NCBI GenBank assembly: GCA_029432775.1
Contig: JAROAZ010000020.1
Span: 1 to 64,000, forward strand
Reading direction: 5' to 3'
Source of the DNA: Pontiellaceae bacterium B12227
Lineage (GTDB): Bacteria; Verrucomicrobiota; Kiritimatiellia; Kiritimatiellales; Pontiellaceae
Length of the DNA stretch: 64,000 nt
Part shown: positions 6,848-59,015 of the stretch, one piece after another
How the letters are laid out: every line of letters begins with the position of its first letter
How positions within the stretch are numbered: the stretch's first letter is position 1
Position numbers and translations under genes: made by a program
Notes under the pieces: generated by a model
Told to the model about the DNA's origin: nothing
What the model saw: only the letters and a program-made list of their open reading frames with translations
Databases searched by the model: none

Positions 6848-6851
6848 AAAG

Positions 6852-7020: not shown

Positions 7021-7036
7021 ACCAAGAACTTGCGCT

Positions 7037-7051: not shown

Positions 7052-7062
7052 ATATTTACTTT

Positions 7063-7668: not shown

Positions 7669-7674
7669 TGGAGT

Positions 7675-7711: not shown

Positions 7712-7750
7712 TGTCACCCCCCTACCCCGATACGTCCTTACCCCAGCAAC

Positions 7751-8065: not shown

Positions 8066-8092
8066 AATCCGTGTTCCTTTCAGTCACTTTTT

Positions 8093-8117
8093 GTCGAAGG
8101 TCTTTGGGTCGAAGGTC
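8093..8117. repeat. direct repeat GTCGAAGGTC in the dnaX-ybaB spacer
   Basis: Two identical 10-base units at 8093-8102 and 8108-8117, with looser relatives of the same wording just beyond. No function is evident. Confidence 0.5.
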
Positions 8118-8175
8118 AAAAGTCCTGCCGGCAAACTCACCCGCGACTTTCGACGTTCAGACATTTGACCCTAAA

Positions 8176-15083: not shown

Positions 15084-15086
15084 TAT

Positions 15087-16532: not shown

Positions 16533-16571
16533 CTAAGCACCGCCTTCAAACCTAAAAAAATGGCATCCATG

Positions 16572-17582
16572 TTATCTCGTTAAATGTGCGTCGTTTAGCG
16601 GAGTTCCCCGCTTTATGTTACATGCGGCCTTCGACACAAGAACGCGGTCCATATGCTTTGGCATCATTCCGTATCCTGGTCGAATAGAGCGCACATTCGC
16701 CGCCGTAAAGGCTTCACCTTCCACGACATCAGCCACTACAAAAAGAGATCTCCGGAAAATTTTGCTTTTATCTTCATTCTGACTCGTACCGAATTTAACC
16801 GACCCCAATGACTGCTCGGCAATGCGCACATTCTGGACTAACTGCTTAAATTCATCGGGTTCCAATGAAAAGCCGCTATCGGCTCCTCCGTCAGAACGGG
16901 CCAGCGTAAAATGTTTTTCTATAACCGTTGCTCCGAGCGCCACGGCCGCTACCGGAACAGCAATTCCCAGCGTATGATCCGAAAGACCTACTCGGCATCC
17001 AAAGCGCTTTCCCAACTCAGGAATGGAGAGCAGGTTGGCATCTTTCGGTTCTGCCGGATAAGCACTGGTACATTTCAACAAGGTAATCTCCGGGCAACCG
17101 CTGTTGTTCAATGCATCCATCGCTTCCGAAATTTCTTCCAGCGAGGCCATGCCCGTCGACATAATCACGGGCTTGCCCGTGCTCCCGATCTTTTTAAGCA
17201 ACGGAATATCGACCAGTTCAAATGACGCGACCTTGTGAATCGGCACGTTCAGCTCTTCCAGAAAATCTACAGAACTGGCATCAAACGGCGTTGAGAAAAA
17301 TTCCAAACCGCACTCAGTGGCCACCTGCTGCAGTTCAGCATGCCACTCCCAAGGCGTATAGGCTTCTTTATAGAGATCATACAGCGTCCGCCCATCCCAT
17401 GCTGTGCCCCCTGAGATTTTAAAATATTCATTATCACAATCAATCGTGAGCGTATCAGCCGTGTAGGTTTGCAGCTTAACCGCATCAGCCCCCGTAGTTG
17501 CTACCGCACGAATCGATTCACGTGCTCTTTCCAAACTTCCATTATGATTGGCCGAAAGCTCTGCAATAATATACGTGCTCAT
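16572..17582 (-). CDS. pseI: pseudaminic acid synthase PseI (NeuB family)
   Basis: PseI condenses 6-deoxy-AltdiNAc with phosphoenolpyruvate to give pseudaminic acid, a nine-carbon sugar of flagella and surface glycans. The 336-residue protein has the NeuB TIM barrel starting IIAELSANHNGS, then GADAVKLQTYTADT, FFSTPFD, HKVASFEL, IMSTGMAS and GLSDHT, and it ends with the SAF antifreeze-like domain (about 280-336). Its ISGGTAWDGRTLYDLY segment is more like PseI than sialic acid synthase. It is two bases downstream of the formyltransferase gene and is the last gene of the pse cluster. Confidence 0.9.
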   Translation of the reverse strand: MSTYIIAELSANHNGSLERARESIRAVATTGADAVKLQTYTADTLTIDCDNEYFKISGGTAWDGRTLYDLYKEAYTPWEWHAELQQVATECGLEFFSTPFDASSVDFLEELNVPIHKVASFELVDIPLLKKIGSTGKPVIMSTGMASLEEISEAMDALNNSGCPEITLLKCTSAYPAEPKDANLLSIPELGKRFGCRVGLSDHTLGIAVPVAAVALGATVIEKHFTLARSDGGADSGFSLEPDEFKQLVQNVRIAEQSLGSVKFGTSQNEDKSKIFRRSLFVVADVVEGEAFTAANVRSIRPGYGMMPKHMDRVLVSKAACNIKRGTPLNDAHLTR

Positions 17583-40655: not shown

Positions 40656-42215
40656 CTAGAAACCGAGCTGTTTCTTGTTCAACCCTTTCTCTCCCACTGC
40701 TTTTTCGGGAGCCACTTGCTGAATGATGGCTTTCATTTCTTCCACGCGGTCCGGATACACGGCCGCCAGGTTGTTTTCTTCGGTCGGATCTTCGGTCAAA
40801 TGAAACAGCAGGCCGGGTTCTTCCACCTTGGTTTCTTTCCAGCCGCTGCCTTTTTTCCAGGTCATGATGCCGAGGCGTTCGGTTACACTGCCCGGCGGAA
40901 CATATTTCCAATTGCCCTTGCGGACGGCAATCTGGGTCAGTGCTTCCTGAATGACATATTCGCGGCCGTCCAGCTCTTCACCCAGAAACGCCCCCATCAG
41001 CGGTTGTCCGTCCTGTCCGGCATTCTTCGGCATGGGCTTACCGATCAGCTCGGCCACGGAGGCGTAGAGATCGACCTGACTGACGATCGCATCGGAGATA
41101 CCCGGCTTGGATTTTCCCGGCCAGGTGACAATGAACGGGACGCGGGTTCCGCCTTCCCATCGGCTGTATTTTCCGCCGCGCCACGGGCCGGATGCATCGT
41201 GCGTTCCCTGGCGTTCAATGCCGGCTTCCCAATAGCCATCGAACAGAACCGGCCCATTGTCGGAAGAAACAACGAACAGCGTATTTTCATACTGCCCGGC
41301 CTCCTTGAGCGTCTGAACCAGACGGCCGACACACCAGTCGAAAACGGCCAGCGCATCGCCCCGCGGCCCGAGGCTGGTTGCTCCCTGAAAGCGGGGATGC
41401 ACCACGCGCGGAACATGATTTTCGTTGGGAGCGAAATAGAGAAAGAACGGATCCTCCTTATTGGCCTCAATGAAGTCGACGGCCTTGTTCAGATAGGTGT
41501 CAGCCATATCCTCGTCTTTAAACCGGGCGCTGTTTCCGCCGCTCATCCAGCCGATGCGGCTCACGCCATTGACAATGGTTTTACCGTGCTGCTCATCGGC
41601 CTGCAGCTTGAGCAGCTGCGGGTGGGAAATGCCGGTTGGATCGGTGCCGACCGGTTCCTGATAGTTCACCTGTATCGGATCGGAGGCATCCAGGTTCACC
41701 ACACGGCCGTCTTTAATATAGACCGATGGAACGCGGTCAGCGGTGGCCGCCATGTGAAAGGATTGCTCGAAGCCGACTTCTTTCGGTCCGGGCTTGATTT
41801 CACCATTCCAGTCGAGCGGTTCCGTTGGAGAACCCAGACCCAGGTGCCATTTACCGGACAGCATGGTCTTATATCCATTATCGCGGAGAAATGCGGCAAT
41901 CGTCGGGCGGGACGGATCAATAATGAGCGGCGCGTTGCCCGGCAGAATCTGAGCGCCCTTATTACGGAAGGCATATTCACCGGTCAGCAGGGAATAGCGC
42001 GACGGCGTGCAGGTTGCCGCCGTGCAGTAACCGCCTGTGAAACGAACGCCCTCTTCAGCCAACGCATCAATGGCCGCCGTATTCACTTCCCCGCCGTAGC
42101 AGCCGATATCGCCATAACCGATGTCATCGCCGTAGATAAAAATAATATTCGGTTTTTCCGCCACGGCTGCACAGGCAGTGAAGGCGGTCACGAGAATCAA
42201 CAGTTTCTTTTTCAT
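40656..42215 (-). CDS. secreted sulfatase, family S1
   Basis: This 519-residue enzyme hydrolyses a sulfate ester, probably on a sulfated galactan. It has a signal peptide (MKKKLLILVTAFTACAAVA), the metal-binding start NIIFIYGDDIGYGD with the paired Asp, and the formylglycine motif C69-T-P-S-R followed by YSLLTG. Cys69 must be oxidised to formylglycine by a maturase not encoded in this window. Further marks are GKWHLG, the long C-terminal subdomain and WRGGKYSRWEGGTRVP. GAAGGGAA precedes the ATG. A GH110-type gene lies just upstream on the same strand, so the two act as a pair. The S1 subfamily is not determined. Confidence 0.93.
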   Translation of the reverse strand: MKKKLLILVTAFTACAAVAEKPNIIFIYGDDIGYGDIGCYGGEVNTAAIDALAEEGVRFTGGYCTAATCTPSRYSLLTGEYAFRNKGAQILPGNAPLIIDPSRPTIAAFLRDNGYKTMLSGKWHLGLGSPTEPLDWNGEIKPGPKEVGFEQSFHMAATADRVPSVYIKDGRVVNLDASDPIQVNYQEPVGTDPTGISHPQLLKLQADEQHGKTIVNGVSRIGWMSGGNSARFKDEDMADTYLNKAVDFIEANKEDPFFLYFAPNENHVPRVVHPRFQGATSLGPRGDALAVFDWCVGRLVQTLKEAGQYENTLFVVSSDNGPVLFDGYWEAGIERQGTHDASGPWRGGKYSRWEGGTRVPFIVTWPGKSKPGISDAIVSQVDLYASVAELIGKPMPKNAGQDGQPLMGAFLGEELDGREYVIQEALTQIAVRKGNWKYVPPGSVTERLGIMTWKKGSGWKETKVEEPGLLFHLTEDPTEENNLAAVYPDRVEEMKAIIQQVAPEKAVGEKGLNKKQLGF

Positions 42216-42229
42216 AAACGAATTCCCTT

Positions 42230-44026
42230 CTAGAACCCTTTGTTATTCTGAACGTTCAGTGTCGGCATTGTGGCCTCGTCGGCCGACACGGTTTTCTTAT
42301 GACTTCCAATATAGGTATTATCTGAAATTGCTACATTCCGGCAATTCTTCAAATCGAATAGATGAGCATCTTTCCGCAGCGGGTCATACGTATCGGTCTG
42401 TTTGATGGTATTCCCTTTGAACACAAATCCATCAACGCGATCAAGCCACACGATACGGTTATCGAAGGTCTCGATGGTGTTGTTGATGAAGCGGATGTTT
42501 TTATCGAACGGAATCGAGGCATCGAATGTTTTTCCGAGCCGCGGTGTAACCAGTAGAACCGAATGCTCCATTCCGCTGGAAGCGCAATTCTTGAAACGGT
42601 TGTTCTGAATCAGGACATCTTCCACGTTGCCGGATTCGAACCAGTAGTAGGTTTCTCCGCGCAGGAAAACGGCCGACATGTGTGAAGAAAAGTCATTATC
42701 TTCAATCACAATCGGAAGCGGCGTTTTGATGACCACGTTGCGGGCGCGGTGTTTCTCGAAATTATTGCCACGCATCGTGAAGGTCGGGTTCCAGGTTTTA
42801 TTTTCCAGCACGTCGCCCTTTTTGAAATTTCCAGGAATTGGATTTTTGAAGATCAGTTCAATAAAACGGTCATTGATGACGATGACCTTTGCAACCGTAT
42901 TCACTTCGCCGCGGGAAGGGTCGGGCTGATGGATGAACCAGCATTCGTCGCCGACACCGGCAAACTCGAAGCCGAGCTGCTGGAAATGCATCAGTTTTAC
43001 TCGGACCGTTTTATCATCGATCACGTCATCCACAGCAACATAGGTTCCGTGGACATTGGTGCTGTCGTCAAGCATCCCCTTGAAGCGCATACCTTCCACC
43101 AGAATATCGCCTTTGCAGTTTGCGAAGTGCGTACCGTCGGCAATGATGGAAACCACCCGCTCGGAGCCCTCGCGAACATAGATGCCGCCGCCTTTAATGC
43201 TGGCGGTATCGCAGCGTTCGAGCAGGAAGCCCATTCCAAGCGCATGGTGGATCACGATGTTTTCGAAGCTCAGGTTCGAGGACGATTTACCGTGAAATGC
43301 CGGAGCATAGCGGTTCTTTTTCCCTTTGGAGTTCAGAATGGTTCCAACGGTTGGATAATGTTTCAGCTTTTCATAAAACCGAAGAATGCCGCCTTTGCGC
43401 TTTTCCACTTTGGTCGGCTGGCTGGTGAAATCCCAGGCACCGTAAGCGACCTCTTTAGACTCCTTATCGAACGCCAACGTCGCACCGACCATTGCATAGG
43501 AGGCCCCGTCCATATCGGGATATACAAGCCGGTTGTTTTTAACCGTCCAGTTAAAGCCCTCGGTGGCCGGCTTAATGTCGCGCCAGCCCTCTTCTTTGTT
43601 CACGGCCATCACCTCGCCCTGGAAGCAGAACGGGATGTCCCAATCGATCGTAAGATTCGATGCCTTCACCTTGGAACAGTTTTCGAACAGGAAAGGCAGT
43701 ATTTGACCATGGAAAATAAACTCGGAGCCGTTTCCTTCAATTTCCACTGATTGGAAACCATCGAACAGAAACGCGATCTTCTTCAGCCCGTTGTCATGAT
43801 TCGTAATGAAGCAATATTTTTCACGGGCGTAGTCCGGTCGGAAAACATATTCACCTTTGGCAAAAACAAGTTTCACCTCTTTGTCTTTCACATTTTCCAG
43901 CGCGGCTCGGATCTCCGAAGTACGATCTCCGGCTCTGGGCTCAAACGTTACCGTTTCCAGCGCCTTAACCACCGGAGAAGCCAGCAGAACCGCCAGCGCG
44001 CAAACCTTTTGAACATTCATCTTCAT
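42230..44026 (-). CDS. GH110-type alpha-1,3-galactosidase, right-handed beta-helix, copy 1
   Basis: This 598-residue secreted protein (signal peptide to about residue 22) has the right-handed parallel beta-helix of GH110, enzymes that remove alpha-1,3-linked galactose. The family-like elements are ITNHDNGLKKIAFLFDG, IEGNGSEFIFHGQILPF, NLTIDWD and, most tellingly, MLDDSTNVHGTY with the Asp-Asp pair at the expected catalytic position. The repeated IRFINNTIETFDNRI-type rungs form the helix. It shares these marks with the gene at 59016. It lies 14 bases upstream of the sulfatase. The nearest biochemical parallel I know is a marine GH110 active on a lambda-carrageenan product; the substrate here is inferred. 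Confidence 0.78.
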   Translation of the reverse strand: MKMNVQKVCALAVLLASPVVKALETVTFEPRAGDRTSEIRAALENVKDKEVKLVFAKGEYVFRPDYAREKYCFITNHDNGLKKIAFLFDGFQSVEIEGNGSEFIFHGQILPFLFENCSKVKASNLTIDWDIPFCFQGEVMAVNKEEGWRDIKPATEGFNWTVKNNRLVYPDMDGASYAMVGATLAFDKESKEVAYGAWDFTSQPTKVEKRKGGILRFYEKLKHYPTVGTILNSKGKKNRYAPAFHGKSSSNLSFENIVIHHALGMGFLLERCDTASIKGGGIYVREGSERVVSIIADGTHFANCKGDILVEGMRFKGMLDDSTNVHGTYVAVDDVIDDKTVRVKLMHFQQLGFEFAGVGDECWFIHQPDPSRGEVNTVAKVIVINDRFIELIFKNPIPGNFKKGDVLENKTWNPTFTMRGNNFEKHRARNVVIKTPLPIVIEDNDFSSHMSAVFLRGETYYWFESGNVEDVLIQNNRFKNCASSGMEHSVLLVTPRLGKTFDASIPFDKNIRFINNTIETFDNRIVWLDRVDGFVFKGNTIKQTDTYDPLRKDAHLFDLKNCRNVAISDNTYIGSHKKTVSADEATMPTLNVQNNKGF

Positions 44027-44295: not shown

Positions 44296-44331
44296 GCATA
44301 TTAAATATTGCCATGTCATTTTTCAGACATG
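44296..44331. promoter_or_regulatory. AT-rich palindrome and CATGTC/GACATG dyad at the regulator start
   Basis: GCATATTAAATATTGC (44296-44311) is nearly palindromic. It is followed by CATGTC (44312-44317) and GACATG (44326-44331), a perfect inverted repeat ending at the start codon of the regulator. Either could be an autoregulatory operator. The rest of the 300-base gap to the GH110 gene shows no gene. Confidence 0.45.
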
Positions 44332-45477
44332 ATGAAATCAAACAAAACTCCGGAAGTCGCCATTCTGATTGGAACCGCACGCACCTGGGGGCGCGATCTT
44401 GTGAAAGGCATCCTGACCTATACCAACCAGGTTACCCCCTGGCATGTCTGGGTGCGCCCGAATATCGGCGGCTTCTATGATGCCCTTCCAGAGGGATGGC
44501 ATGGCGATGGAGTCATTGCACGCGTAACCTCTCCGAAGTTGGCGGAAGAACTCAATGCATCCGGCATTCCGGTGGTGGATGTGTCGGACACTCCCCTGCC
44601 TGGTTTTTCCGCCCCCTGCGTTCGAACCGACGACAATGCGTCCACCCGGATGGCTGCCGAGCATTTCATTAAACGCGGATTCAAAAATATGGCGGTGCTG
44701 AATGCAGACAGTCGACAGATCCAGAATTCGTACGCAAACACCTTCAAAAAAACGGTTGAGGAACAGGGGCTGACCTGCTCAACATTTACCGTTAAGCAGG
44801 ACCAGTCCGACCTTAACGAAGAACTCGCACGCTGGTTGACGGGGCTGCCGAAACCCGTTGGCATTGTCTCCCTCGGTTTGCAATTCGGCTCTGCGATTGT
44901 GGAATGTTGCAAAAAGATCGGGCTGAATGTTCCGCACGATGTTGCCGTCCTCTGCAGCAACTATGACGAACTGATGAACTATGCCTGCCATCCGCCCTTA
45001 TCCGGCATTGTGTCCCCGACCAAACAGATTGGTTTCAAGGTGGCGGAACTGCTGCAGCAGATGATGACGGGAGAACAGGTTCCCCATGAGAATATTTTCA
45101 TTCCGCCGACCGGCATCCGGGAGCACCTCTCCACCGACACCATCGCCGTGGAAGATCCGAAGTTGGTTCCCCTGGTGGAGTTTCTCCAGGAAAACGCCTT
45201 TAAAGCCATCACCATGAACGACATCCTGAAGATCATCCCCATGAGCCGCCGCACCCTTGAGCGCCGCTACTTCAAGGCCTTCGGCCGCACGCCGTTCGAC
45301 GAAATCAAACTGATCCGGATCAATCATGCACGCAAACTGCTGGTCGAAACCGACTGGCCGTTACAGATTATTGCCGAAGAGTGCGGCTATTCCACCTATA
45401 ACTATCTGGCGCAGGTCTTCAAACAAGTAACGGGTATCAGTCCCAGCAGCTACCGCAAAAAAATGACGCTGAGTTGA
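44332..45477 (+). CDS. LacI/AraC hybrid transcriptional regulator (XylR-like)
   Basis: This roughly 381-residue protein joins a periplasmic-binding-protein-like sensor (about 8-275; VAILIGTARTWGRDLVKGI, VDVSDTPLP, GIVSLGLQFGSAIVECC) to a C-terminal AraC-type double helix-turn-helix (about 285-381; ILKIIPMSRRTLERRYFKAFGRTPFDEI, IAEECGYSTYNYLAQVFKQVTGISPSSYRK). The design is that of E. coli XylR. It lies between the GH110-sulfatase pair and the large hydrolase gene and is the only regulator in the polysaccharide locus, so it probably senses a sugar released there. Start at the ATG at 44332 (or 44329); a TTG at 44308 is possible. Confidence 0.9.
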   Translation: MKSNKTPEVAILIGTARTWGRDLVKGILTYTNQVTPWHVWVRPNIGGFYDALPEGWHGDGVIARVTSPKLAEELNASGIPVVDVSDTPLPGFSAPCVRTDDNASTRMAAEHFIKRGFKNMAVLNADSRQIQNSYANTFKKTVEEQGLTCSTFTVKQDQSDLNEELARWLTGLPKPVGIVSLGLQFGSAIVECCKKIGLNVPHDVAVLCSNYDELMNYACHPPLSGIVSPTKQIGFKVAELLQQMMTGEQVPHENIFIPPTGIREHLSTDTIAVEDPKLVPLVEFLQENAFKAITMNDILKIIPMSRRTLERRYFKAFGRTPFDEIKLIRINHARKLLVETDWPLQIIAEECGYSTYNYLAQVFKQVTGISPSSYRKKMTLS

Positions 45478-45505: not shown

Positions 45506-48500
45506 TTAAGGCTGGCTGATATGCAGCCGAAAGAAGAGATTATCATTGGTGCTGCCATCGATATGATATGCAGCATCGTAATAGCCCGAAGTGGCTGATT
45601 CGGTATAATTTGACCCATCCCACACACGGTTCCAGACATTGGAAACCAGATCGTCCGACCATTCAGTCAGATAGGTGATGCCCGGGTTGGAGTTACTCAC
45701 TTCCAAATGCTGGAAACTGACCGTGTTGTCCGGATGATATATAATCGAGGGCGGAGTTCCCTGGTTCAGCGCATTGGTCGGATTCCCGGCCAGCGCATAT
45801 TCATAGAGGTCCGTTTTTCCATCATCATCGTTATCTGCCGCAGGATCCCCGTTCAACCCGTAGGCGGACACATAATCGTTCCAACCATTGGAAGTGCCCG
45901 AACTGGCTTTCGCCTGAAAGTACCGAAGGTCGGCATAAATGTTCACACCTGATCCCGAAAGGTCATAGTAGAGACCTACGGATTTAACATTTTTCATATC
46001 AATGATGGCTAAGGAACCGATGGATCCATATCCATTGACCAACGGAGTAAAATTATACCAGTTTAAGCCGGATGGCTCATCCACTGACAACGTTGGAAAT
46101 GAGGCAGCGTTTGCATGGTATTGTGTTAATTGCAAACCGGCACTTGCATACCAATCGCCGCTTTCTTTCTGAACAATCCAGTGGACCGTTCCGGTCCCCG
46201 ACCCTCCAAACATCGAAAAGCGGGCCTCAGCCGCCAGACTGACTAAACCGGCCGTTCCGCCGTCGGGCAGAAGGTCCCATACATACATGCAATCGTATGT
46301 GGCCTGATTTTTACCCGACCGGATTATATCGCCGCTATCTTTGTCACTGATCTCTTTTGCATTTCCGTTGCTGCTCGCAGCTGTGTTGAACCGGGGCGAC
46401 CGATTCGTATTCACCGGATAATAGTCGGCGCCAACCACCGGGTTGGCATTGGTATTCCCGACATAGGTAATGCTCTTGAAAATGAAACTTTGATTGTTCG
46501 TAACAATGCCGGTGTCTCCCCCGACTTCACCCCACTGAATAATCACGTTCACAACGGGTGGTGAGACCGGATTTTCAGTTTTAAGCAACAGGACATCATA
46601 CGGCTGCATCATCTGCGTACTCGATACCGGTTGCCCGGTAAGCAAGTTACGATAATTCGCAGCATGGCCGGATGTGAGCGACAGGGCAACCGTTCGCGGC
46701 TCGGTGCTGAGGTTGATCAAGGCCATGGTTGAGTTGCCGATTGCCTCATCCTGGGATTGCATGGCCAGCACGCCATAGGCCGGAGCACCGCCGTCCGTGA
46801 TTTCAACCTCAACCGGAAGAACCGGCTTCAAAGCAAGCAATGCACTCTCCAGACCGGCAGCCATGGCAAAGGTATCCGATGAATACGGCACGCTCGCATA
46901 GGGCGTCAGTCCGGATGATCCTCGCGCAACACCGTGCTCATCTTTTGCAAAGCTGGCTGAAGTCCCATTGACCTGGATAACGTTTCCTCCCGCAGCTTCG
47001 AATGCCTGCAGCTTCAAAAGATTTGCATCAGAAACGAACGGTGCGGGCGGCATAATGACTGTCTGCTCAGCCGGATTAAGCAAACTGAACGTCGACGGCG
47101 TAACAAACCCGACCGGAATATTAAGTAACTTTGCGGATTCATAAACCGCTTCCAGCTGAACCAGATAATCAGCATCCTGGATGGCGGCTTCATCGCAATG
47201 ATAAATCATGTAATAGCGGGTCTCCGGAACCAGCGACACCACCGAGGCGGCGTGAGCATTCAACTCCTTAAACGTGCGGCCATATGCATCGAGTGCCGAG
47301 GGCAACGTGACGATGCTCCCCATCATCGCGTCAATGCCGCCTTTACGCAGACTCCCGTCATCATCGCGCGGCCAATACCAGGCCTGCATGGCGCGCATAC
47401 CGTGCGATGCCGCCATCCAGATTGCCGCACGAACATAGTCCGGATCCATCGAGAAATCGCGCCAGCGACCGGTCGACAGCCCATGCCACTCGGAATCATA
47501 AAACGCCTTACCCGGAGAGACGGAACGCATAAAGTCGAGCGTGGCCGACTGCCCCGTCCATTGCATGCCATAGCGGGTCATCCACTCTTCGTCACCTTTA
47601 TAGTTCAGGTTCGACATCCCCAGCGGAATCACCTTGTTATCCGCTCCCTGCACATCCATCAGTTTTGCCAGATATTCCACATCGATTCCTTCATCGCGCG
47701 ATGAAAGAAACTGTCGGCCCAGCACTTTGATGGTTACCGGGTCCAATCCGGGATCATTGGCTTGTGTACCGGCTTTGAGAAACTCAAAAAAACCGTTGAT
47801 GCGACTCATATTAAACAGACACCAGTCATGCCAGACCGGGCCGCCCTGAATGGTCGATGGAGCCGACGGATCAATCGGCATCGTCATGGCATTCATAGCG
47901 GCATTAAAATCCGCATGCGTTGTGCCGTAAGTCGTATTCAGATTGGCAATAGCAGTATATTTATCCTGCAGCCATTGGTTGTAGTTGGTCATGGTGTTGG
48001 CCGAAACCCCGTTATCCGCCAACCAGCCGCCTTTGCGCGTGGCAAAGTTGGGTTCGTTCGCCAACAGGTGCATACGTGCACCGTTGCCGGAACCGTTGGG
48101 ACCGCAAAGCTCCGGCAGTAGGCCTTCAAACAACTGGGTCAACCAGTTTCTAATCTGCGGGCTGTCCGTATCGTATTTGACGAAGTTGCGCGCTCCGTTG
48201 GTAATGGCGGAGTTGGTGGCAATCATCCAGGAATCAACAGCCCCCCCCAGGAAGATCTGCTGCGGCATTTCATTGTTCGCCGTCTGGGCAAAGGCATCGT
48301 CGCGCTCATCGGTTAGGAACCAGGGTGTGATCGATCCATCCGGCTCCAGATTGGTCAGTTGATAATAGGACCCGCTCATACGACCGAATGCCTGCATCAG
48401 ATCCTCATCAGCCGGCATCCAGGTGAAGGTGCTTGGAATGGCCGGAATGCCATCCAGCGCATAGTAGTCGTTCGTCAATGTCATGGTACCGGAGGAAAGA

Positions 48501-48931
48501 TCGAGAGGAGCTTTCAAAACAATATCGGATGCAAGCTGCGCCTGCAGCTCAGCAACCGCATTGGAGGCCACCGCAAGGCACTCCGCCATTTCATCAAACG
48601 GCAGTTCAAGATGATAGGTCGCCGCATTCGGAATCTTATGCCCCCACCACGTATCCTCAACCGCGTTCGACATCACTTCCGGATGATCGTAGTCATATTG
48701 AGCGAAGGTCTGAAACCGGTCGATCACGACTTGAGAAACATACGCATAGTCCGTATTCAACCCGGCCGCATCCGCCTCAGCAACCAAGGTGGCCAATACG
48801 GTTTCATTGCTGGAGACACTGTTCGCCAGAGCCTGCCAGTCAGCAGGGGTGGTTCCCCCGTCCCAGGCCGCAGCCCCCGAGGCGAGCAGCAGCGCGCTGA
48901 ACGGCACCATTTTCCAAGGTTTGGAATTCAT
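45506..48931 (-). CDS. large secreted clan-A-like glycoside hydrolase with accessory module and EF-hand tail
   Basis: This 1141-residue secreted protein (signal peptide to about 22) has a catalytic part whose segments LLANEPNF (about 283-290) and FYDSEWHG (about 472-479) look like the acid/base and nucleophile Glu of TIM-barrel clan GH-A enzymes such as GH42. A beta-sandwich follows. Then comes a module of about 200 residues (about 790-1010), beginning with IIQWGEVGGDTGIVTN, that recurs twice in the secreted protein at 52396. The C-terminal end has DNDDDGKTDLYEYALAGNP, an EF-hand-like calcium loop, and ends in FFRLHI. GAGGG precedes the ATG. Beta-galactosidase-type activity is plausible; the GH family is not fixed. 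Confidence 0.6.
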   Translation of the reverse strand: MNSKPWKMVPFSALLLASGAAAWDGGTTPADWQALANSVSSNETVLATLVAEADAAGLNTDYAYVSQVVIDRFQTFAQYDYDHPEVMSNAVEDTWWGHKIPNAATYHLELPFDEMAECLAVASNAVAELQAQLASDIVLKAPLDLSSGTMTLTNDYYALDGIPAIPSTFTWMPADEDLMQAFGRMSGSYYQLTNLEPDGSITPWFLTDERDDAFAQTANNEMPQQIFLGGAVDSWMIATNSAITNGARNFVKYDTDSPQIRNWLTQLFEGLLPELCGPNGSGNGARMHLLANEPNFATRKGGWLADNGVSANTMTNYNQWLQDKYTAIANLNTTYGTTHADFNAAMNAMTMPIDPSAPSTIQGGPVWHDWCLFNMSRINGFFEFLKAGTQANDPGLDPVTIKVLGRQFLSSRDEGIDVEYLAKLMDVQGADNKVIPLGMSNLNYKGDEEWMTRYGMQWTGQSATLDFMRSVSPGKAFYDSEWHGLSTGRWRDFSMDPDYVRAAIWMAASHGMRAMQAWYWPRDDDGSLRKGGIDAMMGSIVTLPSALDAYGRTFKELNAHAASVVSLVPETRYYMIYHCDEAAIQDADYLVQLEAVYESAKLLNIPVGFVTPSTFSLLNPAEQTVIMPPAPFVSDANLLKLQAFEAAGGNVIQVNGTSASFAKDEHGVARGSSGLTPYASVPYSSDTFAMAAGLESALLALKPVLPVEVEITDGGAPAYGVLAMQSQDEAIGNSTMALINLSTEPRTVALSLTSGHAANYRNLLTGQPVSSTQMMQPYDVLLLKTENPVSPPVVNVIIQWGEVGGDTGIVTNNQSFIFKSITYVGNTNANPVVGADYYPVNTNRSPRFNTAASSNGNAKEISDKDSGDIIRSGKNQATYDCMYVWDLLPDGGTAGLVSLAAEARFSMFGGSGTGTVHWIVQKESGDWYASAGLQLTQYHANAASFPTLSVDEPSGLNWYNFTPLVNGYGSIGSLAIIDMKNVKSVGLYYDLSGSGVNIYADLRYFQAKASSGTSNGWNDYVSAYGLNGDPAADNDDDGKTDLYEYALAGNPTNALNQGTPPSIIYHPDNTVSFQHLEVSNSNPGITYLTEWSDDLVSNVWNRVWDGSNYTESATSGYYDAAYHIDGSTNDNLFFRLHISQP
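45879..45893. repeat. iterated palindrome, exact copy in the clan-A-like hydrolase gene
   Basis: TTCCAA-CCA-TTGGAA; minus-strand codons S-N-G-W-N. One-mismatch copies lie nearby at 45630-45644 (S-N-V-W-N) and 45701-45715 (F-Q-H-L-E). Confidence 0.85.
48912..48926. repeat. iterated palindrome, exact copy at the start of the hydrolase gene
   Basis: TTCCAA-GGT-TTGGAA covers codons 2-7 of the 1141-residue hydrolase, read as S-K-P-W-K. Confidence 0.85.
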
Positions 48932-49102
48932 CTTTTATCCCTCTTTACGAACCAGGAAACGGCAATTGAGCCCCATCACACATCGCGATGCTTCCTTTCA
49001 ATAGTCGATTTACAGTGTCTGCAATACGAGAGATAGAGGCTATCGGCGATCCGGCAAAAGATATACGACATTTCGCCTCGTTGCAGTCCGGATGCTACAG
49101 AA

Positions 49103-50641
49103 CTACAGAATCGAACGAATTCCGGCCTTCCCTTTCATCTTTTCGAGCAGTTCTTTCAGCTCGGCCGCTTTTTCGGGATGCTTCGCAATGATGTTGTTCT
49201 GCTCCGAGGGATCGTCTTTCAGATTAAAGAGCGAAGGCTGAATGGGGTCGCGCCCCTTGGGCCACTTCGGCTTGGCCGGACCCACATATTTCCACTCATG
49301 GTGGCGAAGCGCCAGCCCCCAGGATTCTTCAATCATATAGGTGTGCCCTTTATCGCTCTCCCCCAGAAAAGTCGGCAGCATATTCCGGCTATCGATGCCT
49401 TCTTTCGCCGGAAGCTCAACCCCGACGAGGTCTGCAAACGAAGCCATAAAATCGATCTGGTTCACCATTGCATCCGAAGTGCCCGGTTTAATACGGGCGG
49501 GCCAGCTGATGATCAGCGGCACCCGGGTTCCGCCTTCATAGATCTGGTATTTGCCGCCACGCCAGATTCCGGAGCCATCGTGCCCGCGGTCCAGTTCTTC
49601 TTTCGAACACTCCACTTCGGTTCCATCCACATAGCCGTCGTCATAGGTCGGTCCGTTGTCGCTGGAAAAGATGACGATCGTATTCTCAGCCAACCCGTGC
49701 TTCCTGAGGGTTTTCATGATTTGGCCGACCGTCCAGTCGAACTGCACCATGGCATCGCCGCGGTAGCCCAGCTCGGTCTTCCCTTTAAAGCGCGGGTGCG
49801 GCGCGCGCGGCACATGAATGTCCTGCGAGGCGAAATAGAGAAAAAACGGCCGGTCTTTATTGGCCGCAATGAATGAGCGGGCTTCGCCCACAAATACATC
49901 CGAGATGGTTTCATCATTCCACAATGCCGATTTACCGCCGGACTGATACCCAATCCGTCCGATTCCGTTAATCACACTGTTATCATGCCCGTGCGTGCTC
50001 TGATAATAGGTCATCGCCTCGCGATTGGTTTTTCCGTCGGGATACTGCGTGCTACCCGCAACCTGAACGTCAGCCAGTTTCTTTCCGACATACAGCGGAT
50101 CCGACGGATCCAGATTCACAACGCGGCGTCCCTTCAGATAGACACAGGGAACCCGGTCGTTCGTGGAGGGCAGCAGAAAGGAATAGTCGAAACCAATTTC
50201 CAACGGGCCGGGCTTCACCTTCCCGTTCCAGTCGGTTTTCACACCGGACTTGCCAATGCCCAGATGCCATTTCCCGATCACGCCGGTCGTATAGCCGGCC
50301 TGTCGGAACATCTGCGGAAGCGTTAAGCGGTCGAGCGGAATCAGCAACGGCGCATCGGGCGGAAGAATCCGGGCGTTATAACGAAAAGCATGAATGCCCG
50401 TCAGCATCGAAAAACGCGACGGTGTACAGGTGGAAGCAGAGCAATGCCCGTCCGTAAAATTAATACCGCCGGTTGCCAGCTTATCGATGTTCGGAGTCGG
50501 AATCATTTTTGATCCATTCACTCCAACGTCGGCAAATCCCACGTCATCGCCATAGATAATAACAACATTCGGTTTCGTTACCGCACCGGTTGAGCAAGCA
50601 AGCCATGCAACAGCATAGACCATCATCGGGAAAAGTTTCAT
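49103..50641 (-). CDS. secreted sulfatase, family S1, copy 2
   Basis: This 512-residue sulfatase has a signal peptide (about 1-21), VVIIYGDDVGFADVG with the metal-binding Asp pair, and the formylglycine motif C72-T-P-S-R followed by FSMLTG. GKWHLGIGKSG, the GGTRVPLIISWP segment and a compact C-terminal domain complete the family outline. It resembles the sulfatase at 40656 in overall plan (both have FIAANKDRPFFLYFA-like or FIEANKEDPFFLYFA-like segments) but is clearly a different paralogue, so it probably removes sulfate from another position. It lies between the clan-A-like hydrolase and GH27 genes on the same strand. Confidence 0.93.
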   Translation of the reverse strand: MKLFPMMVYAVAWLACSTGAVTKPNVVIIYGDDVGFADVGVNGSKMIPTPNIDKLATGGINFTDGHCSASTCTPSRFSMLTGIHAFRYNARILPPDAPLLIPLDRLTLPQMFRQAGYTTGVIGKWHLGIGKSGVKTDWNGKVKPGPLEIGFDYSFLLPSTNDRVPCVYLKGRRVVNLDPSDPLYVGKKLADVQVAGSTQYPDGKTNREAMTYYQSTHGHDNSVINGIGRIGYQSGGKSALWNDETISDVFVGEARSFIAANKDRPFFLYFASQDIHVPRAPHPRFKGKTELGYRGDAMVQFDWTVGQIMKTLRKHGLAENTIVIFSSDNGPTYDDGYVDGTEVECSKEELDRGHDGSGIWRGGKYQIYEGGTRVPLIISWPARIKPGTSDAMVNQIDFMASFADLVGVELPAKEGIDSRNMLPTFLGESDKGHTYMIEESWGLALRHHEWKYVGPAKPKWPKGRDPIQPSLFNLKDDPSEQNNIIAKHPEKAAELKELLEKMKGKAGIRSIL

Positions 50642-50680
50642 GAATACATCCTTAGCGTTTCAAATCAGTCGAGTATGTAT

Positions 50681-52270
50681 TTATGACATTGTGCGTACCA
50701 ATACAACTCCATGCGAACGAACTTTTGCCGAAAACCCTTTCCTGAAATGACCGATATCAGTCTGCCGCCAGATATCACGTAAAAGTGTCGGACCCGACAG
50801 CCCTATGGTCTTCCAATCAATGGAAACCACCTGATCAGCATCTGCTTTATTAAATAAGCCAATCGCCTTTCCGCCATCGGCCAGTTCTTTAACAACCACT
50901 TCGACCTGATTCGCCAGGTCATACGAACGCCCCGGGACAGCCAGCGCATCCTGATGCACTTCGAGCACTTCCGCATTCTTGAGCAGGTTCAGCGTAAATG
51001 CATCCATCGACTCGATCGGGCAACCGATTAATAACGGACACGACCAAAGTACCCATAGAGAGATATGGCTGTACTGTTCATCGGGGGTCAAACTGGATGG
51101 AGCCGGCGCCTGCCGACTCTCTGTACTGGTGACCACATCACCGATCACCAACATATCAGCATCCGGAAAATGTCCTGGTCCGCCGCGCACGCCTTCTTCC
51201 ATCCAGTTGCGATGCTGCGTCCATTGTTCCACCACATTCAGGTGACACCCCTCCTGATCCCACCGATCCTTCAGGTCTCCTGCCGTTCGCCAACAGTTGA
51301 CTACCTTCATGTAAAGTTCCGCATGCTCCAACGGTGCGGTGTTGGAGATTGAATATAGAATATCGCGTCCGCAGTTTTTCAGCGCGTTGGCCATGCGGAG
51401 CGTGCTTGCCGGGTCGTTGGGATTCCAGTCGTACTTCAAATAGTCGATGCCCCACTCTGCCCACTGAGCGGCATCGTTTTCATCGAACACATGCTCAGCA
51501 ACCCGGTAGCACTCTTTCATTTTCCGGTCTTTTTTATGACCCATGATTTCCTGATCCCATCTGCCATCCGGATAATCGCTCGAACCGCCAATACGGCCGG
51601 CATAGGTGGTAATCCACGGAGATGAATAGATCCCCACCTTCAGGCCCAGCGCATGGATTTCATCGCACAGTTTTCCAAGGTCCGGAAATGCTGAAGGATC
51701 AGGCTGAATGGCATTATGCGGACCGCCCCGCCGGCCCTGCCACGCATCATCGATATTGATGTATGACCAGCCATAATTTATCAGTTCGGTTTCGACCATT
51801 GCTCGGGCCGAATCACGCACATGCTTCTGGCTGACTTCGGTTTGCCAGCAGTTCCAGGAATTCCACCCCATTGGCGGAGTCAGACCAATCGAGTCGCCGA
51901 CCACAACCGTGAAAGTCCGTTCGGCAGAGCCAAAGCGATTCTCCACCTTAAACACCAACCGGTATTCAGACTCGGTTGCGTCAACAATAGTACCGCTGAT
52001 CTGCCCCGTATCCGCATTCAGCTGCAAGCCGGCCGGCAGATGGTCGGCCCTGAACTTCATCGGGCGCCGGCCAGAGGCCGGAATCGTGTACAGAAAGGGA
52101 GATCCCGGCCGGACCCCGAAAACAGAAGGACCATTGATCCGGGGCAAAGGCAGTTCCGGCGGTGTTAACAAATATTTACCATCTCCATAGACCGGATCAT
52201 ATACCTCGCCATCCACAGCACTCACCGAAGCTTCTTCATTTATCATGATGTTACTATGATCAATCATCAC
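50681..52270 (-). CDS. GH27 alpha-galactosidase-like glycoside hydrolase
   Basis: This 529-residue protein has an N-terminal Ig-like putative domain (about 35-125, PAGLQLNADTGQISGTI) followed by the GH27 TIM barrel: LTPPMGWNSWN, INIDDAWQ, DYLKYDWN with the nucleophile Asp, and WRTAGDLKD with the acid/base Asp. A C-terminal beta-sandwich closes it. GH27 enzymes remove terminal alpha-galactose, alpha-N-acetylgalactosamine or beta-L-arabinopyranose. Unlike the other hydrolases here, it has no evident signal peptide at the ATG at 52270, so it may act inside the cell or start differently. It precedes the second sulfatase on the same strand. Confidence 0.88.
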   Translation of the reverse strand: MMIDHSNIMINEEASVSAVDGEVYDPVYGDGKYLLTPPELPLPRINGPSVFGVRPGSPFLYTIPASGRRPMKFRADHLPAGLQLNADTGQISGTIVDATESEYRLVFKVENRFGSAERTFTVVVGDSIGLTPPMGWNSWNCWQTEVSQKHVRDSARAMVETELINYGWSYINIDDAWQGRRGGPHNAIQPDPSAFPDLGKLCDEIHALGLKVGIYSSPWITTYAGRIGGSSDYPDGRWDQEIMGHKKDRKMKECYRVAEHVFDENDAAQWAEWGIDYLKYDWNPNDPASTLRMANALKNCGRDILYSISNTAPLEHAELYMKVVNCWRTAGDLKDRWDQEGCHLNVVEQWTQHRNWMEEGVRGGPGHFPDADMLVIGDVVTSTESRQAPAPSSLTPDEQYSHISLWVLWSCPLLIGCPIESMDAFTLNLLKNAEVLEVHQDALAVPGRSYDLANQVEVVVKELADGGKAIGLFNKADADQVVSIDWKTIGLSGPTLLRDIWRQTDIGHFRKGFSAKVRSHGVVLVRTMS

Positions 52271-52342
52271 TATCTACCATGAGCGATTACGTCCCGTTTA
52301 TCTATACTATTTCAGGTAAAAGGCATGCGGGATTGCGCCAAA

Positions 52343-52374
52343 AAAAAGCGCCCCGCCTGAACGGAGCGCTTTTT
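52343..52374. terminator. bidirectional terminator downstream of the 802-residue secreted protein
   Basis: Stem AAAAAGCGC-CCG / CGG-GCGCTTTTT, with one mismatched pair (C/A) in the middle and a six-base loop. It lies about 22 bases beyond the secreted protein stop codon and upstream of the GH27 gene. Confidence 0.85.
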
Positions 52375-52395
52375 CCGAAAACTGTGGATCCCGGT

Positions 52396-54789
52396 TTATT
52401 CCACAATCAGTTTTATAAACTTCTTCGCATCGGCAGTTCCGATGGTTTCGCTATTTTCGAGGAAGTCACCGCTGATCGAGCCGGAGCTGACGTTGATTAC
52501 CGCGCCCGTTGCCCAGGTGCCAGTGGTCAGGCTGTCGGTGGTGAGAACTCTGGCTTTCAGGCCGTCTTCGGCACCCAGCGTCCAGAAGACATAGTCGCCG
52601 GTGGAAGCATCGAATACCGGCTGCGTTCCAACATGGTCGCCATCGAGAGGCTCGCCGCCAAAGATATATTCGCCCCAGTTGTCCAGCGCGTCGTTGTCCG
52701 GGTTTTCGCCCATTCCGCCAACACCCTTCTCTGTTGCCCATTCTTCGTATCCAGAAGCTCCAGCCGGTGCGGCATATGCGGCGAAGTGACGCATTCTTGT
52801 GCCATACCACGCTGATGATGCTCCGTTGACTTCGGCATAGTAGCCGACGGAAACGACGTTCTCCATATCGATGGTCGTTGGAGTCGCGGCAATAACCGGA
52901 TTGTCGCCGGCATGCGGAGTGTATTCATACCAAGTCATGCCATCGGTATATTGAATTATGCCATCCGTGTAGGCCGTGGTCAGTGCGGTGGCCTCGCTGG
53001 CAAACCAGTCGCCGTTGCTCTTTTCAATGACAATGCGGTAGTTGCCATCGCTGAAGGCGGCATTGAAGCCTTGGATTTCAATGGAAACACCCATGAGCGT
53101 GGTGGCCGTTTCGTCCAGATAGTTTTCCCACACCACCATGTGCTGCTGGTTGGTTTGGTTCCGGTTGACCTGGATTCGATCTCCGGTCCAGTCGTCGTCT
53201 ATCGTGAGGCTCTGCACCGATCCTGCGGCATAGCCGGCAAAGTTAAAGACCGGCGATTTGTCCGTATTGTTCGGATAGTAGTCCGGTCCCACTGTGGGAT
53301 TGGACTCCGTGCCTGCTACGTAGGTGGAGGATTCGCCGGACACGCCGACGTCGTTCGTGGTGATATCAGTCGATCCGCCAGCGGCTCCCCACTGCACAAT
53401 CTTAGTCGATACGGGCCCCGGAGTTGCAGAAGCCTTGAAATAACGGGTCTGGTGCGAATTCCATCCGCCGGACGAGTTGGTAAATACATTAAAACTTCCG
53501 ACCGTGACAATATCGTCCATCGTGATGAACGTTGCATTGGATGCAAAGGTGACACTGTCAATATCCTGATAGGGATTGAAGGCATACCAATCGATGGAGT
53601 CCGGATAGTTCTCTTCATAGAGTTCCCAGCCGCCGGTAGTCGCAACAGGCGCGCTGGCATACCAATCGCCGGTACCCTTCTCGATCACCCAGCGGAAGTC
53701 GGAATAGTCATCGCCAAGCGATTTGCTTCTTCTTGTTGACGTTGCCAGATAGTCCAGCGTGTGATTATCGAGCATGAAGTTTTCCCACGCCAGCATCATG
53801 CGGTATTCCTTCTGGTTCTTGGCCGACTCGATGCTATCGCCATCACTGCCGCCTTCCAACACGCGCTTAGTATTGGCCGTGGCCGATGCCACTTGATTGA
53901 ATATAGGCGTGCGGTCAACGGCACTGGAATAGTAGCTGTCGCCAATCGCAGGATTGCACTCGCTTCCCGCAACATAGGACCCTAGCGATAGTGCAAAGTT
54001 TTGATTGTTGGTCACAATGGCGGTGTCGCCACCGGGCTCGCCCCACTGCACGACCGTCGGCCCTGGAAGCGGGATCAAAGCGACATAACTGGAGGTCACC
54101 GAAAAATCATCGATCACCCGATTGGTGGTCTTTGTGGTGTCTTCGTTGCGCGAAGAGCTGATCCCCACCTTGATTGTGGAATTGGTGAAGAATGACTCAG
54201 TTGTCTTGATGGCACTCGCACTCGTTTCAACCGTTACACCACTGGTCAGATTGGAAAGACTGAAGGTCGCCGACCAGGAATTGGTGAAGTGCCCTTTGCT
54301 GAGACTGCATGTATACAGGCAGGCCTCGCCAGTCAGATCGTTGCTGCTCAAGCCCAGCACGGATTCATTGAACGGCTTCCAGCCATAGGGTGTATTTTCC
54401 GTGTCCTTCATGGACAGTGCGTAGCCTGTGGCGCCAGAACGCGACAGATAGATGCGCGGCCCGCCACTGAACTGGAAGCTGAATACATCATTTCCACCAT
54501 TAGTGGGGTTGGTTTCATCGAACGAAAATACGGCAGAAAGCGTATAGATATTGTCCGTAGCTGCATCAATCAGATCCGGGGCATACGAGCTCTGCCACTG
54601 ATTTGAAGAAATGGCCACCTTCTCGCCTGCCACCGTATTACCATCGTTCCCGGTCCATCCGTTCTGTCCGCTAAGCACACCATTCGTATAGCCGCTGGCC
54701 AACGAAAAGTCATACGTCACCGCCTGCACAGAGGCTGCCAGCATCAGGCCTGCACCCAATGCGAATGTTGTTATATTTCTGTTCTTCAT
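52396..54789 (-). CDS. secreted protein with two copies of a QWG module and EF-hand-like tail
   Basis: This roughly 797-residue protein has a signal peptide (MKNRNITTFALGAGLMLAASVQA) and an N-terminal concanavalin-like region (about 25-240). Two homologous modules of about 200 residues follow, opening TVVQWGEPGGDTAIVTN and KIVQWGAAGGSTDITTN. Each has NP-x2-G-x2-YY, an FN, a WENY/WENF, a K-x2-GDW(Y/F)AS and a WY-x(F/Y)-x-P. The same module occurs once in the clan-A-like hydrolase at 45506. The tail has NPDNDALDNWGEYIFGGEP, an EF-hand-like loop, and ends KFIKLIVE. There is no catalytic motif, so a substrate-binding role is inferred. The ATG at 54789 has GAGGAG upstream. Confidence 0.65.
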   Translation of the reverse strand: MKNRNITTFALGAGLMLAASVQAVTYDFSLASGYTNGVLSGQNGWTGNDGNTVAGEKVAISSNQWQSSYAPDLIDAATDNIYTLSAVFSFDETNPTNGGNDVFSFQFSGGPRIYLSRSGATGYALSMKDTENTPYGWKPFNESVLGLSSNDLTGEACLYTCSLSKGHFTNSWSATFSLSNLTSGVTVETSASAIKTTESFFTNSTIKVGISSSRNEDTTKTTNRVIDDFSVTSSYVALIPLPGPTVVQWGEPGGDTAIVTNNQNFALSLGSYVAGSECNPAIGDSYYSSAVDRTPIFNQVASATANTKRVLEGGSDGDSIESAKNQKEYRMMLAWENFMLDNHTLDYLATSTRRSKSLGDDYSDFRWVIEKGTGDWYASAPVATTGGWELYEENYPDSIDWYAFNPYQDIDSVTFASNATFITMDDIVTVGSFNVFTNSSGGWNSHQTRYFKASATPGPVSTKIVQWGAAGGSTDITTNDVGVSGESSTYVAGTESNPTVGPDYYPNNTDKSPVFNFAGYAAGSVQSLTIDDDWTGDRIQVNRNQTNQQHMVVWENYLDETATTLMGVSIEIQGFNAAFSDGNYRIVIEKSNGDWFASEATALTTAYTDGIIQYTDGMTWYEYTPHAGDNPVIAATPTTIDMENVVSVGYYAEVNGASSAWYGTRMRHFAAYAAPAGASGYEEWATEKGVGGMGENPDNDALDNWGEYIFGGEPLDGDHVGTQPVFDASTGDYVFWTLGAEDGLKARVLTTDSLTTGTWATGAVINVSSGSISGDFLENSETIGTADAKKFIKLIVE

Positions 54790-54921
54790 CCTGTAACTCC
54801 TCATGGTTAATTACATCCGGTCCCCTTCCGGTTCATCCGCCGAAAGACAGGCATCGGGTTCATTTCCCCTTACCTGATGATTGCATAAAAACTTAAAGCA
54901 CAAATACATTCTATACATGAT

Positions 54922-54942: not shown

Positions 54943-55076
54943 TTTGCCACACCGGTTTTCCAGCGGACTCAGAATCAACCATTGCCCGGCCATCGCATTT
55001 GTATACTTTGTCCACATTTTAATTCCCCATTCGTTTAATGCTTGATTGCACGGCCCTGTGCCGTAACAAGGATTGT

Positions 55077-56552
55077 ATGAAAAGAAGAAATTTTATCTCT
55101 AACGTCACCGTGCTCTCTCTCGGCGCAGCCGGAACCCCCTTCATTTCCTTCGGTGAATTGCCCCATCATAAGCTGATGAGTAAAGGCGACCTGCAAACCA
55201 GCCTGAAAATTTTCAATCTTTGGGACGTGCAGCCGACCGAAAAACAGGCGCTTCTGATCAAAGCCGATGAAATCCTGCGGCCGAACCGCGCCGGTTCATT
55301 TGCCGACCTCTCAGACGATCCCGAATTTCAGGCCATGGCCCGAAGCGCCGGGCTCACCCACCTGGGCGGCCCCATGCTTGGAAACATTTCTGAAACCGGC
55401 GCAGACCTTTGGATCCGCACCTTAAAACCGGCGCAGGTTTCGGTGGAACTGGATGGAAACGTTTTCGGTCCCGTGGCCACAACCATAGAAAGCAACCTCT
55501 CCGCTGTGGTTCCAATCATTGGAATGAAGCCCGGCCGTGATTATCCTTATAAGGTGCTGATCGACGGCAACCCCGCGCGCATTCCGGCAACTTCCAGGCT
55601 CCGGACCGTTCCGGGGAAAAACACTCGCATCGCCTTCGGAAGCTGTTGGCACCGTTGGGGATTGAACCACCCGCAGATGGATCTGCTCCGGGAGCGCCGC
55701 CCCCATGCGTTGCTCGCCATCGGCGACATTGCGGTGCAGGATCGGAGCGGCCACATCGGATTGACCACCCACGACTTTCTCATGCGCGACCTCACGCCCC
55801 GTTGGAACGACTTTGTGGCAACCGTCCCGGTTTATTCCGGATGGGACGACCACGACTACTGTGCAAACGATAAATGGAACACCTCTTCAAAATTCAGTGC
55901 CGCCGATCGTTCCAATGTTCGGAAAGCCTTCACCCAGTCGTGGGTGAACCCCCAGTACGGCCTGAACGGTAAAAGCACCTTTCTCCGCACCCGTATCGGC
56001 CCGTGCGACATCATCATGACCGACAACCGGTTCGCCCGCAAAAAGAACGGCCGCTACCTCGGCGAAGAGCAGCACGAATGGCTGAAAGAGCAGTTGCTCG
56101 ACTGCAAAGGCCCGTTCATCATTCTCTCCTGCGGCACCATGTGGTCCGACTATGTATCCAACGGCAAAGACTCCTGGGGCAAATACGATCAGGCCGGACG
56201 CGAAGAAATCTTCAAGCTGATTGAAGAGCATCAGATTAAGGGCGTTCTGCTTATTTCCGGCGACCGCCACGGTGCGCGCGGTTTCACGCTGCCCCGCCCC
56301 GGCGGCTTCAACTTCTACGAGTTCGGCGGTGCCTGCTTCGGCGGTCGCATCGGGCCGCCCGCAAAAGATCCAAACTGGACCACCCAGCTCTACGGCATTG
56401 CAGCTCAATATGCCTTCAGCGAATTTGAATTTAATACCACAAAACCCGACCCCGAAGTCACCTTCCGCCTCACCGGCGAAAAGGGAAACCGGATTCACGA
56501 GCTGACGTTAACCCGCAGCCAGCTCACACCGCCGGAAAGGACCCGCTCATGA
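55077..56552 (+). CDS. PhoD-like metallophosphatase with Tat signal
   Basis: This 491-residue protein resembles the PhoD (alkaline phosphatase D) family of calcium/iron-dependent phosphodiesterases. It begins with a Tat-type signal ([18 protein letters not shown]). A fibronectin-like N-terminal part (about 90-185; [20 protein letters not shown]) is followed by the metallophosphatase: [34 protein letters not shown] and [12 protein letters not shown]. Start at the ATG at 55077. Its stop overlaps the ATG of the next sulfatase by four bases, so they are translated together. In a carbohydrate locus the substrate may be other than phosphate esters; that is open. Confidence 0.85.
55510..55524. repeat. 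iterated palindrome, exact copy in the PhoD-like gene
   Basis: TTCCAA-TCA-TTGGAA; plus-strand codons V-P-I-I-G-M. A one-mismatch copy lies at 55910-55924 (S-N-V-R-K). Confidence 0.85.
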
Positions 56553-57946
56553 AAAAATGGATAGGCATCGGCCTGCTTGCCGCAACAACCGTACTGGCAA
56601 ACCCGAAAAACGTACTACTGATCTGCATCGACGATCTCCGGCCTGAACTGAACTCGTTCGGGGTGGACTATATTCACTCGCCGAACATCGACAAACTGGC
56701 CGAAAGCGGGCGCCCTTTTATCCGGCACTATGTAAACGCGCCCAGCTGCGGTCCCTCCCGCTGCACCCTGCTGACCGGCCGCTACGGAGCCCCGGCGAAC
56801 GATGCCCTCTTTAAACGGGCGGCACAGTTTGCCAAAGCCCCGGAATCCGTCCCGCCGAGCATGCCGGAATGGTTCCGCACCCATGGCTACACCACCGTCT
56901 CTGTCGGCAAAGTTTCCCACCATCCCGGCGGACGCGGCGGCCCCGACTGGAACGACAACTCGAAAATTGAACTGCCCAACGGCTGGGACCGTCACCTCAT
57001 GCCCGTTGGTGAATGGCAGCACCCGCGCGGAGCCATGCACGGCCTCGCCCACGGCGAAATACGAAACAAGCCCGGTGAGATGGATCTGTTCCAATCTTCG
57101 GAAGGTCCGGACACCATCTATCCCGACGGCCTGATCGCCGACGAAGGAATTAAACAGCTCGAAGAACTCGCGCAGGCAGACCAACCCTTCTTCCTGGCCG
57201 TCGGCCTCATCAAGCCCCACCTGCCGTTCGGCGCGCCGGCGGAATATATGAAACCGTATGAAGGCAAACCCCTTCCCCCCATCCCCCATCCCCGAAAACC
57301 GACCGGCAAAACCACCTGGCACGGCTCCGGTGAGTTCATGAAATATAACCGATGGGGAAAAGATCCGCGCAAAAACGATGCATTTGCCGAAGAAGTCCGC
57401 CGCCACTACGCCGCCTGTGTCACCTATGCCGACAAACACGTTGGCGACCTCATGGCCGCTCTAAAAAAATCCGGGGCGGCGCAGGATACCATCGTCATCA
57501 TCTGGGGCGACCACGGCTGGCACCTGGGAGAACATGCCATCTGGGGCAAACACAGCCTTTTCGAAGAATCCCTGCACTCCCCGCTGATCATTTCCTATCC
57601 CGGCATTGGAAACCCCGGCATACCATCCGGGGCCGTGGTTGAGACGCTCGACATCTTCCCGACCCTGTGCCAGCTGACCGAAGTTCCAATGCCTGGATTT
57701 ATTCAAGGCGAATCGCTGGTTCCAATGCTTGGAAATCCCGACGCGGAAGGTCACTGCGCATTGGCTTACAAGGGGGGAATATACACCTTACGAACCGATC
57801 AATATCGCTTCACCCTTCACGGCAACGGCCACGTGGAGCTTTACGACCACACCTCACCCGAAAAGGAAATGTTGAATGTGGCGGAAAAACATCCTGAGCT
57901 CGTTAAAAAACTGACCGCTCAACTCAAGGCGAAAAAAAACGGATGA
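56549..57946 (+). CDS. secreted sulfatase, family S1, iduronate-2-sulfatase-like
   Basis: This 465-residue sulfatase has a short signal peptide (to about Ala17), [18 protein letters not shown] with the metal-binding Asp pair, and the formylglycine motif C67-G-P-S-R followed by CTLLTGRYG. Gly at the second position, and the IDDLRPEL start, fit the branch near iduronate-2-sulfatases rather than the two CTPSR enzymes in the window. [23 protein letters not shown] is well kept. It overlaps the PhoD-like gene by four bases (ATGA). An exact and two variant palindromes lie in it. Confidence 0.93.
57720..57734. repeat. iterated palindrome, exact copy in the third sulfatase gene
   Basis: TTCCAA-TGC-TTGGAA; plus-strand codons V-P-M-L-G-N. 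Variants lie 36 bases upstream (57684-57698) and at 57089-57103. It is the last copy before the right edge of the window. Confidence 0.85.
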
Positions 57947-58793: not shown

Positions 58794-59015
58794 TCCGTCC
58801 AACAGCATAATGAGACAGAAACAGGGCTCTATTTGCACAGTGGCCGGTATGCCGTCCACTGGTTTCCAGCTGCACAGGGCGACAATATAACGCATTTCTT
58901 TTACGTGATGTAGTATAGTTTTAATCCCCCCCTTCAGTTACCTTTTTCAGCACATAGGGATATGAAGTGTACTTGGGTTCCCCTGTGTAATAGAGAATTG
59001 AAAGGGTTAGGGTTT

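Follow-up and report, generated by a model that had tools for sequence, protein, structure and literature searches.

A module of 210-213 residues occurs once in a GH167-type hydrolase and twice in a second secreted protein of Pontiellaceae bacterium B12227, a marine, Pontiella-like organism. Both are encoded in the 64 kb at the start of a contig of 116.5 kb, a stretch that is here called the window. The module is probably sugar-binding, because it is fused to, and appears to travel with, enzymes that digest λ-carrageenan. The reading that we favour is that of a new family of non-catalytic β-sandwich carbohydrate-binding modules (CBMs) for carrageenan-type sulfated galactan, with lambda-carrageenan as the most likely ligand, where "new" means, as judged from sequence searches, that the family was not found in Pfam-A, NCBIfam or the PDB sequences. 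Such a module would hold the secreted enzymes and their non-enzymatic partner on the polysaccharide.

Module copies and predicted fold

The 1141-residue reading frame at 45506-48931 (minus strand) contains one copy (copy 1, 45905-46543, minus strand, 213 residues) and the 802-residue frame at 52396-54804 (minus strand), which we call SecX, contains two of 210 residues each (copy 2, 53425-54054, and copy 3, 52771-53400, both on the minus strand). Both BLASTP and an iterated profile search thereby confirm the distribution that had been proposed in the initial annotation, in which the second frame ended at 54789, its second in-frame ATG. Pairwise, the copies are 32-35% identical over their full length and score 111-114 bits (BLASTP, E 7e-35 to 6e-36). 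Chance similarity can be discarded, since the best of 1000 shuffled copies reached only 26 bits; reversed decoys gave at most 4.7 bits. Of the seven motifs listed earlier, six are present at equivalent positions in all three copies, whereas D-x4-VG is found literally only in the first copy of SecX. When a profile was made of just the three copies in the window, as had been suggested, it recovered 35 domains in the loci collected, and a genus-wide profile search yielded 36 domain copies in seven genomes. Two further copies lie 0.6-2.4 kb past the right edge of the window (G000:C119:64596-65222 and 65762-66367).

The initial annotation did not recognise the domain, and this has held up: no Pfam-A family was accepted for the module (DUF3823 at E 0.004 and Mann_GBD_bact at E 0.055 are among the best matches below threshold), NCBIfam gave no match, and the profile of the module matches no PDB sequence even at an E-value of 10. 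The structure prediction that had been called for gives a confident all-β domain of 15 strands for the isolated module (AlphaFold2, 35-row alignment, pLDDT 95.8, pTM 0.92). Foldseek returned only six PDB matches at E<=0.001. AgWH50C, a GH50 agarase, comes first in its list, in which the weak matches include CBM11, CBM61 (beta-1,4-galactan), CBM4-2, agar-binding CBM6 and GH50 agarases, as well as β-sandwiches of viral, MAM and lectin type. Known CBMs reach low TM-scores only (0.21-0.44, query-normalised) and non-CBM β-sandwiches score alike. With TM-scores of about 0.2-0.44 in the list and CBMs intermingled with other β-sandwiches, the predicted fold class would suit a CBM without being diagnostic of one.

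A catalytic role for the module itself was considered and dropped, as it lacks an accepted match to a catalytic family and is joined to several different catalytic domains; we take it to be non-catalytic. It does behave as a discretely folding domain within carbohydrate-active enzymes, as a CBM is understood to be, given the confidence of the model (pLDDT as above), a GH167 homology that stops before the module begins and the fusions to both GH150 and GH167.

Carrier proteins and their locus

Residues 44-784 of the hydrolase, which span the GH167 catalytic and accessory domains (46580-48802, minus strand), match the solved GH167 structures 9whd_A (E 7.8e-69) and BovGH167 6ptm_A (E 7.2e-59) in a phmmer search of the PDB, and the alignment to these relatives stops about 13 residues short of the module. 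The NE and SE motifs of the GH-A type are kept, ANEP and DSEWH being aligned to NEP and SE/TEGH, so that homology together with both catalytic glutamate motifs assigns the protein to GH167. A characterised GH167 enzyme releases β-neocarrabiose from carrageenan ends (PMC6923384). Following the module, the hydrolase ends in a domain of about 130 residues (45506-45904, minus strand; DNDDDGKTD..YEYAL..) that it has in common with GH150 proteins, and tblastn finds matches to this tail beside GH150 and GH167 in loci L006, L032-L037, L050 and L055. The Asp-rich tail, unnamed by Pfam, is also seen at L006:5245-5628 and 9165-9545. Its function may lie in anchoring or sorting.

SecX (52396-54804) is a secreted protein without a recognised catalytic domain, in which the two modules are preceded by an all-β domain of about 215 residues (54067-54717, minus strand) that was modelled at low confidence. 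Its sole Pfam match, to DUF3823, is below threshold (16.7 versus 27 bits), and a profile of its orthologues found nothing in the PDB; both searches are consistent with the description of this protein as catalytically silent. Modelling of SecX at full length gave a poor result (mean pLDDT 52.8), which was left out of the fold searches. Orthologues with two or three modules are present in four other genomes. Since no catalytic domain was accepted by Pfam or PDB profile, its sequence is consistent with a role in capture or as a scaffold.

The proteins that carry the two copies past the window edge have 1518 and 1282 residues and are members of the λ-carrageenase family GH150, an assignment based on the Pfam CGLA models on the first protein, of which CGLA_M is also found on the second. 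Three GH150 genes are grouped closely just beyond the edge (L006:1075-5631, 5700-9548 and 14045-17011, within G000:C119:61.1-77.0 kb), two with a module and one without, and a GH2 gene is found in the same region. Between the GH2 gene and a GH150 gene lies a frame for a 271-residue protein with a PEP-CTERM-like C-terminus (L006:13203-14018), the tail of which also matches L006:10256-10354. Further carriers, as named by Pfam, are additional GH150 proteins, four sulfatases, an SASA-type esterase, a Big_9 protein and several proteins without a named domain. GH167 and one GH150 have the module at the C-terminus, and other GH150s and sulfatases have it at the N-terminus. Among 43 copies placed in a tree, one from a GH150 is nested within GH167 modules with a support of 0.98, which shows that modules have been exchanged between enzymes. 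In several carriers of 650-947 residues (L046:7644-9653, L043:5934-7883, L041:7021-9861 and L045:8310-10922) the remainder of the protein matches no named domain above the threshold; these are possible enzymes or binding proteins of an unknown kind.

Between SecX and the hydrolase lie a GH27-like alpha-galactosidase (50681-52270, minus strand; Melibiase_2, Melibiase_C and He_PIG in Pfam) and an S1_15-like sulfatase (49103-50641, minus strand; best PDB match S1_15A 9bas, E 1.6e-147). On the other side of the hydrolase are an AraC/XylR-type regulator (Pfam; 44308-45477, plus strand), which is also found near the locus in G018, G024 and G027, a GH110-like protein with GLAA-B domains (Pfam; 42230-44026, minus strand) and a second S1_15-like sulfatase (40656-42215, minus strand; 9bas, E 1.2e-149). 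Beyond SecX follow a sulfatase (Pfam; 56549-57946, plus strand) and a GH110 alpha-1,3-galactosidase (58962-60848, plus strand; best PDB match GH110A 9beh, E 1.5e-85). A PhoD-like phosphatase (PF09423) with a DUF7800 domain is encoded at 55038-56552, directly upstream of the former. GH110A and S1_15A are part of the experimentally solved λ-carrageenan pathway of Pseudoalteromonas distincta, and GH150 enzymes are reported to act on lambda-carrageenan only (PMC12549532). With three GH150 genes, two GH110 genes, a GH2 gene and S1_15-like sulfatases clustered, the gene content of the neighbourhood matches that pathway.

The block of SecX, GH27, sulfatase and GH167 is kept in G005, G024 and G027, where the GH27 gene likewise adjoins SecX, and parts of it are found in G018, which has the GH27 gene, and in G021. 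At L032:10991-11128 in P. sulfatireligans, the GH27 position between SecX and the sulfatase is represented by a 46-residue match only, as if the gene had been lost or replaced.

Distribution and possible ligands

Strong matches to the module (>75 bits) within the genus occur in G000, G005, G014, G018, G021, G024 and G027, which are exactly the seven of 28 genomes that have a canonical GH150 (>400 bits; Fisher p=8e-7, a value inflated by the common descent of the seven). Among 388 genomes drawn from the phylum, a strong match was present in 6/6 genomes with a canonical GH150 versus 2/382 of the others; here too shared ancestry makes any co-occurrence p-value too small. In two genomes of other families (G211 and G247) the module is fused to GH150, with GH110 in the same loci. 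Among the carriers, P. sulfatireligans is able to grow on carrageenans, as is P. agarivorans, which is inferred to be one of them. Scans with a single sequence found no relatives of the module in viral contigs or in genome contigs. A 9-row core alignment found seven loci in the genome contigs, including one from a Phycisphaerae MAG, a planctomycete, in which two copies are part of a large cadherin-like surface protein. This frame (L097:7013-11794) has a LEPR-like N-terminus and cadherin-like repeats and is cut by the contig end.

The weaker matches to the module are mostly secreted proteins of about 250-310 residues from several families that end in PEP-CTERM signals. A profile-profile comparison aligns the two groups over 192 columns (probability 99.5%, E 4e-23), which places the module in a larger superfamily together with PEP-CTERM surface proteins of the stand-alone kind. 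The PEP-CTERM alignment A4, used as a query, matched 141/289 genomes, a number that we do not take as a frequency of the domain because many of the weak matches span the tail only (query positions of about 240-291). Within the superfamily, N79, Y83 and R207 (numbering of copy 1) are kept in 20-22 of 25 copies from GH150, GH167 and SecX versus 4-8 of 18 others, and are candidate residues of a ligand site. All nine copies counted are net negative (K+R 6-13 versus D+E 18-31).

The initial annotation had suggested a new CBM, and several observations combine to support this: no family match was accepted, the module is fused to carrageenan enzymes at either end, it is duplicated in SecX, where no catalytic domain was recognised, and its predicted fold is all-β with CBMs among the weak neighbours. 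The low TM-scores, the acidic copies and the stand-alone PEP-CTERM relatives speak against it; a net negative charge is unhelpful for binding a polyanion, unless there is a specific site or a metal. The acidity and these relatives, together with a genus member with a weak PEP-CTERM match (L049) and the planctomycete surface protein, would suit a generic surface or attachment domain of exported Verrucomicrobiota proteins, engaged in protein-protein contacts or in the cells' own exopolymer matrix and present on the carrageenan enzymes merely through shared display. We consider this rather unlikely, as the occurrence of the high-scoring subfamily follows that of canonical GH150 from one genome to the next, the module is found at either end of GH150, GH167 and sulfatases, and the tail domain of about 130 residues on the same enzymes is the better candidate for anchoring.

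The "sulfated galactans" named initially as ligands can be narrowed to carrageenan, with lambda-carrageenan as the best guess. We regard a different or broader ligand, such as kappa-, iota- or beta-carrageenan, agar or a neutral galactan, as improbable, since strong matches in the genus coincide with canonical GH150, which is reported active on lambda-carrageenan only (PMC12549532). Points in favour of such a ligand are the action of characterised GH167 on beta/kappa-carrageenan ends rather than on lambda (PMC6923384), the copies on an SASA-type esterase and, at a distance from the main locus, on proteins that lack known domains, and the presence of CBM61 and agar-binding CBM6 among the weak fold neighbours. 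Slightly less probable still is that the module has already been described as a CAZy or dbCAN family that lies outside Pfam-A, NCBIfam and the PDB sequences, where it has no accepted match; CBM92, which is known to bind carrageenan, has a different fold, that of a beta-trefoil (PMC11039641).

If the module is indeed a carrageenan-binding CBM, it would raise the local substrate concentration on the GH150 endo-lambda-carrageenases, GH167 and the sulfatases, and SecX, with its two or three modules, would serve the same locus by capturing glycan or as a scaffold. A more elaborate version is a tentative one, which we think somewhat doubtful: a CBM specific for lambda-carrageenan could have arisen from a widespread Verrucomicrobiota surface domain and then been passed around between GH150, GH167 and sulfatases, SecX being its dedicated, non-catalytic partner for carrageenan capture at the cell surface. 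Carrageenan-binding modules are scarce, and the literature that a full-text search found on them defines one CBM family, CBM92, as a carrageenan binder. A module that binds λ-carrageenan would help to account for the attack of anaerobic Kiritimatiellota on a polysaccharide that is among the most highly sulfated and could serve as a probe for λ-carrageenan; it would also give a testable function to a superfamily that otherwise consists mainly of unnamed PEP-CTERM surface proteins.

Comparison with known binding modules and carrageenases

CBM92, the founder of which binds carrageenan (PMC11039641), and CBM16, present on the kappa-carrageenase kappa-ZL-4 (PMC10449746), resemble the module in being non-catalytic domains on carrageenases. 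The beta-trefoil of CBM92 differs from the fold predicted here, and the papers cited for the two families report neither of them on GH150 or GH167 (PMC11039641, PMC10449746). The β-sandwich families CBM11, CBM61, CBM4 and CBM6 and the CBM-like domain of the GH50 agarases are likewise all-β and appended to glycosidases, but they have no detectable sequence similarity to the module, their TM-scores to the query are at most 0.44, and the matched CBM chains are shorter, with about 127-175 residues versus about 210.

The stand-alone PEP-CTERM proteins of the Verrucomicrobiota are homologous to the module over its full length; unlike the module on the carrageenan enzymes, they carry a sorting tail and have no enzyme attached. 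Finally, the GH150 enzymes of Pseudoalteromonas (CglA, GH150A/B) have the same three-domain CGLA catalytic part as the GH150 carriers described here. The former have been modelled as three domains, to which the carriers add the module as an extra, appended part.
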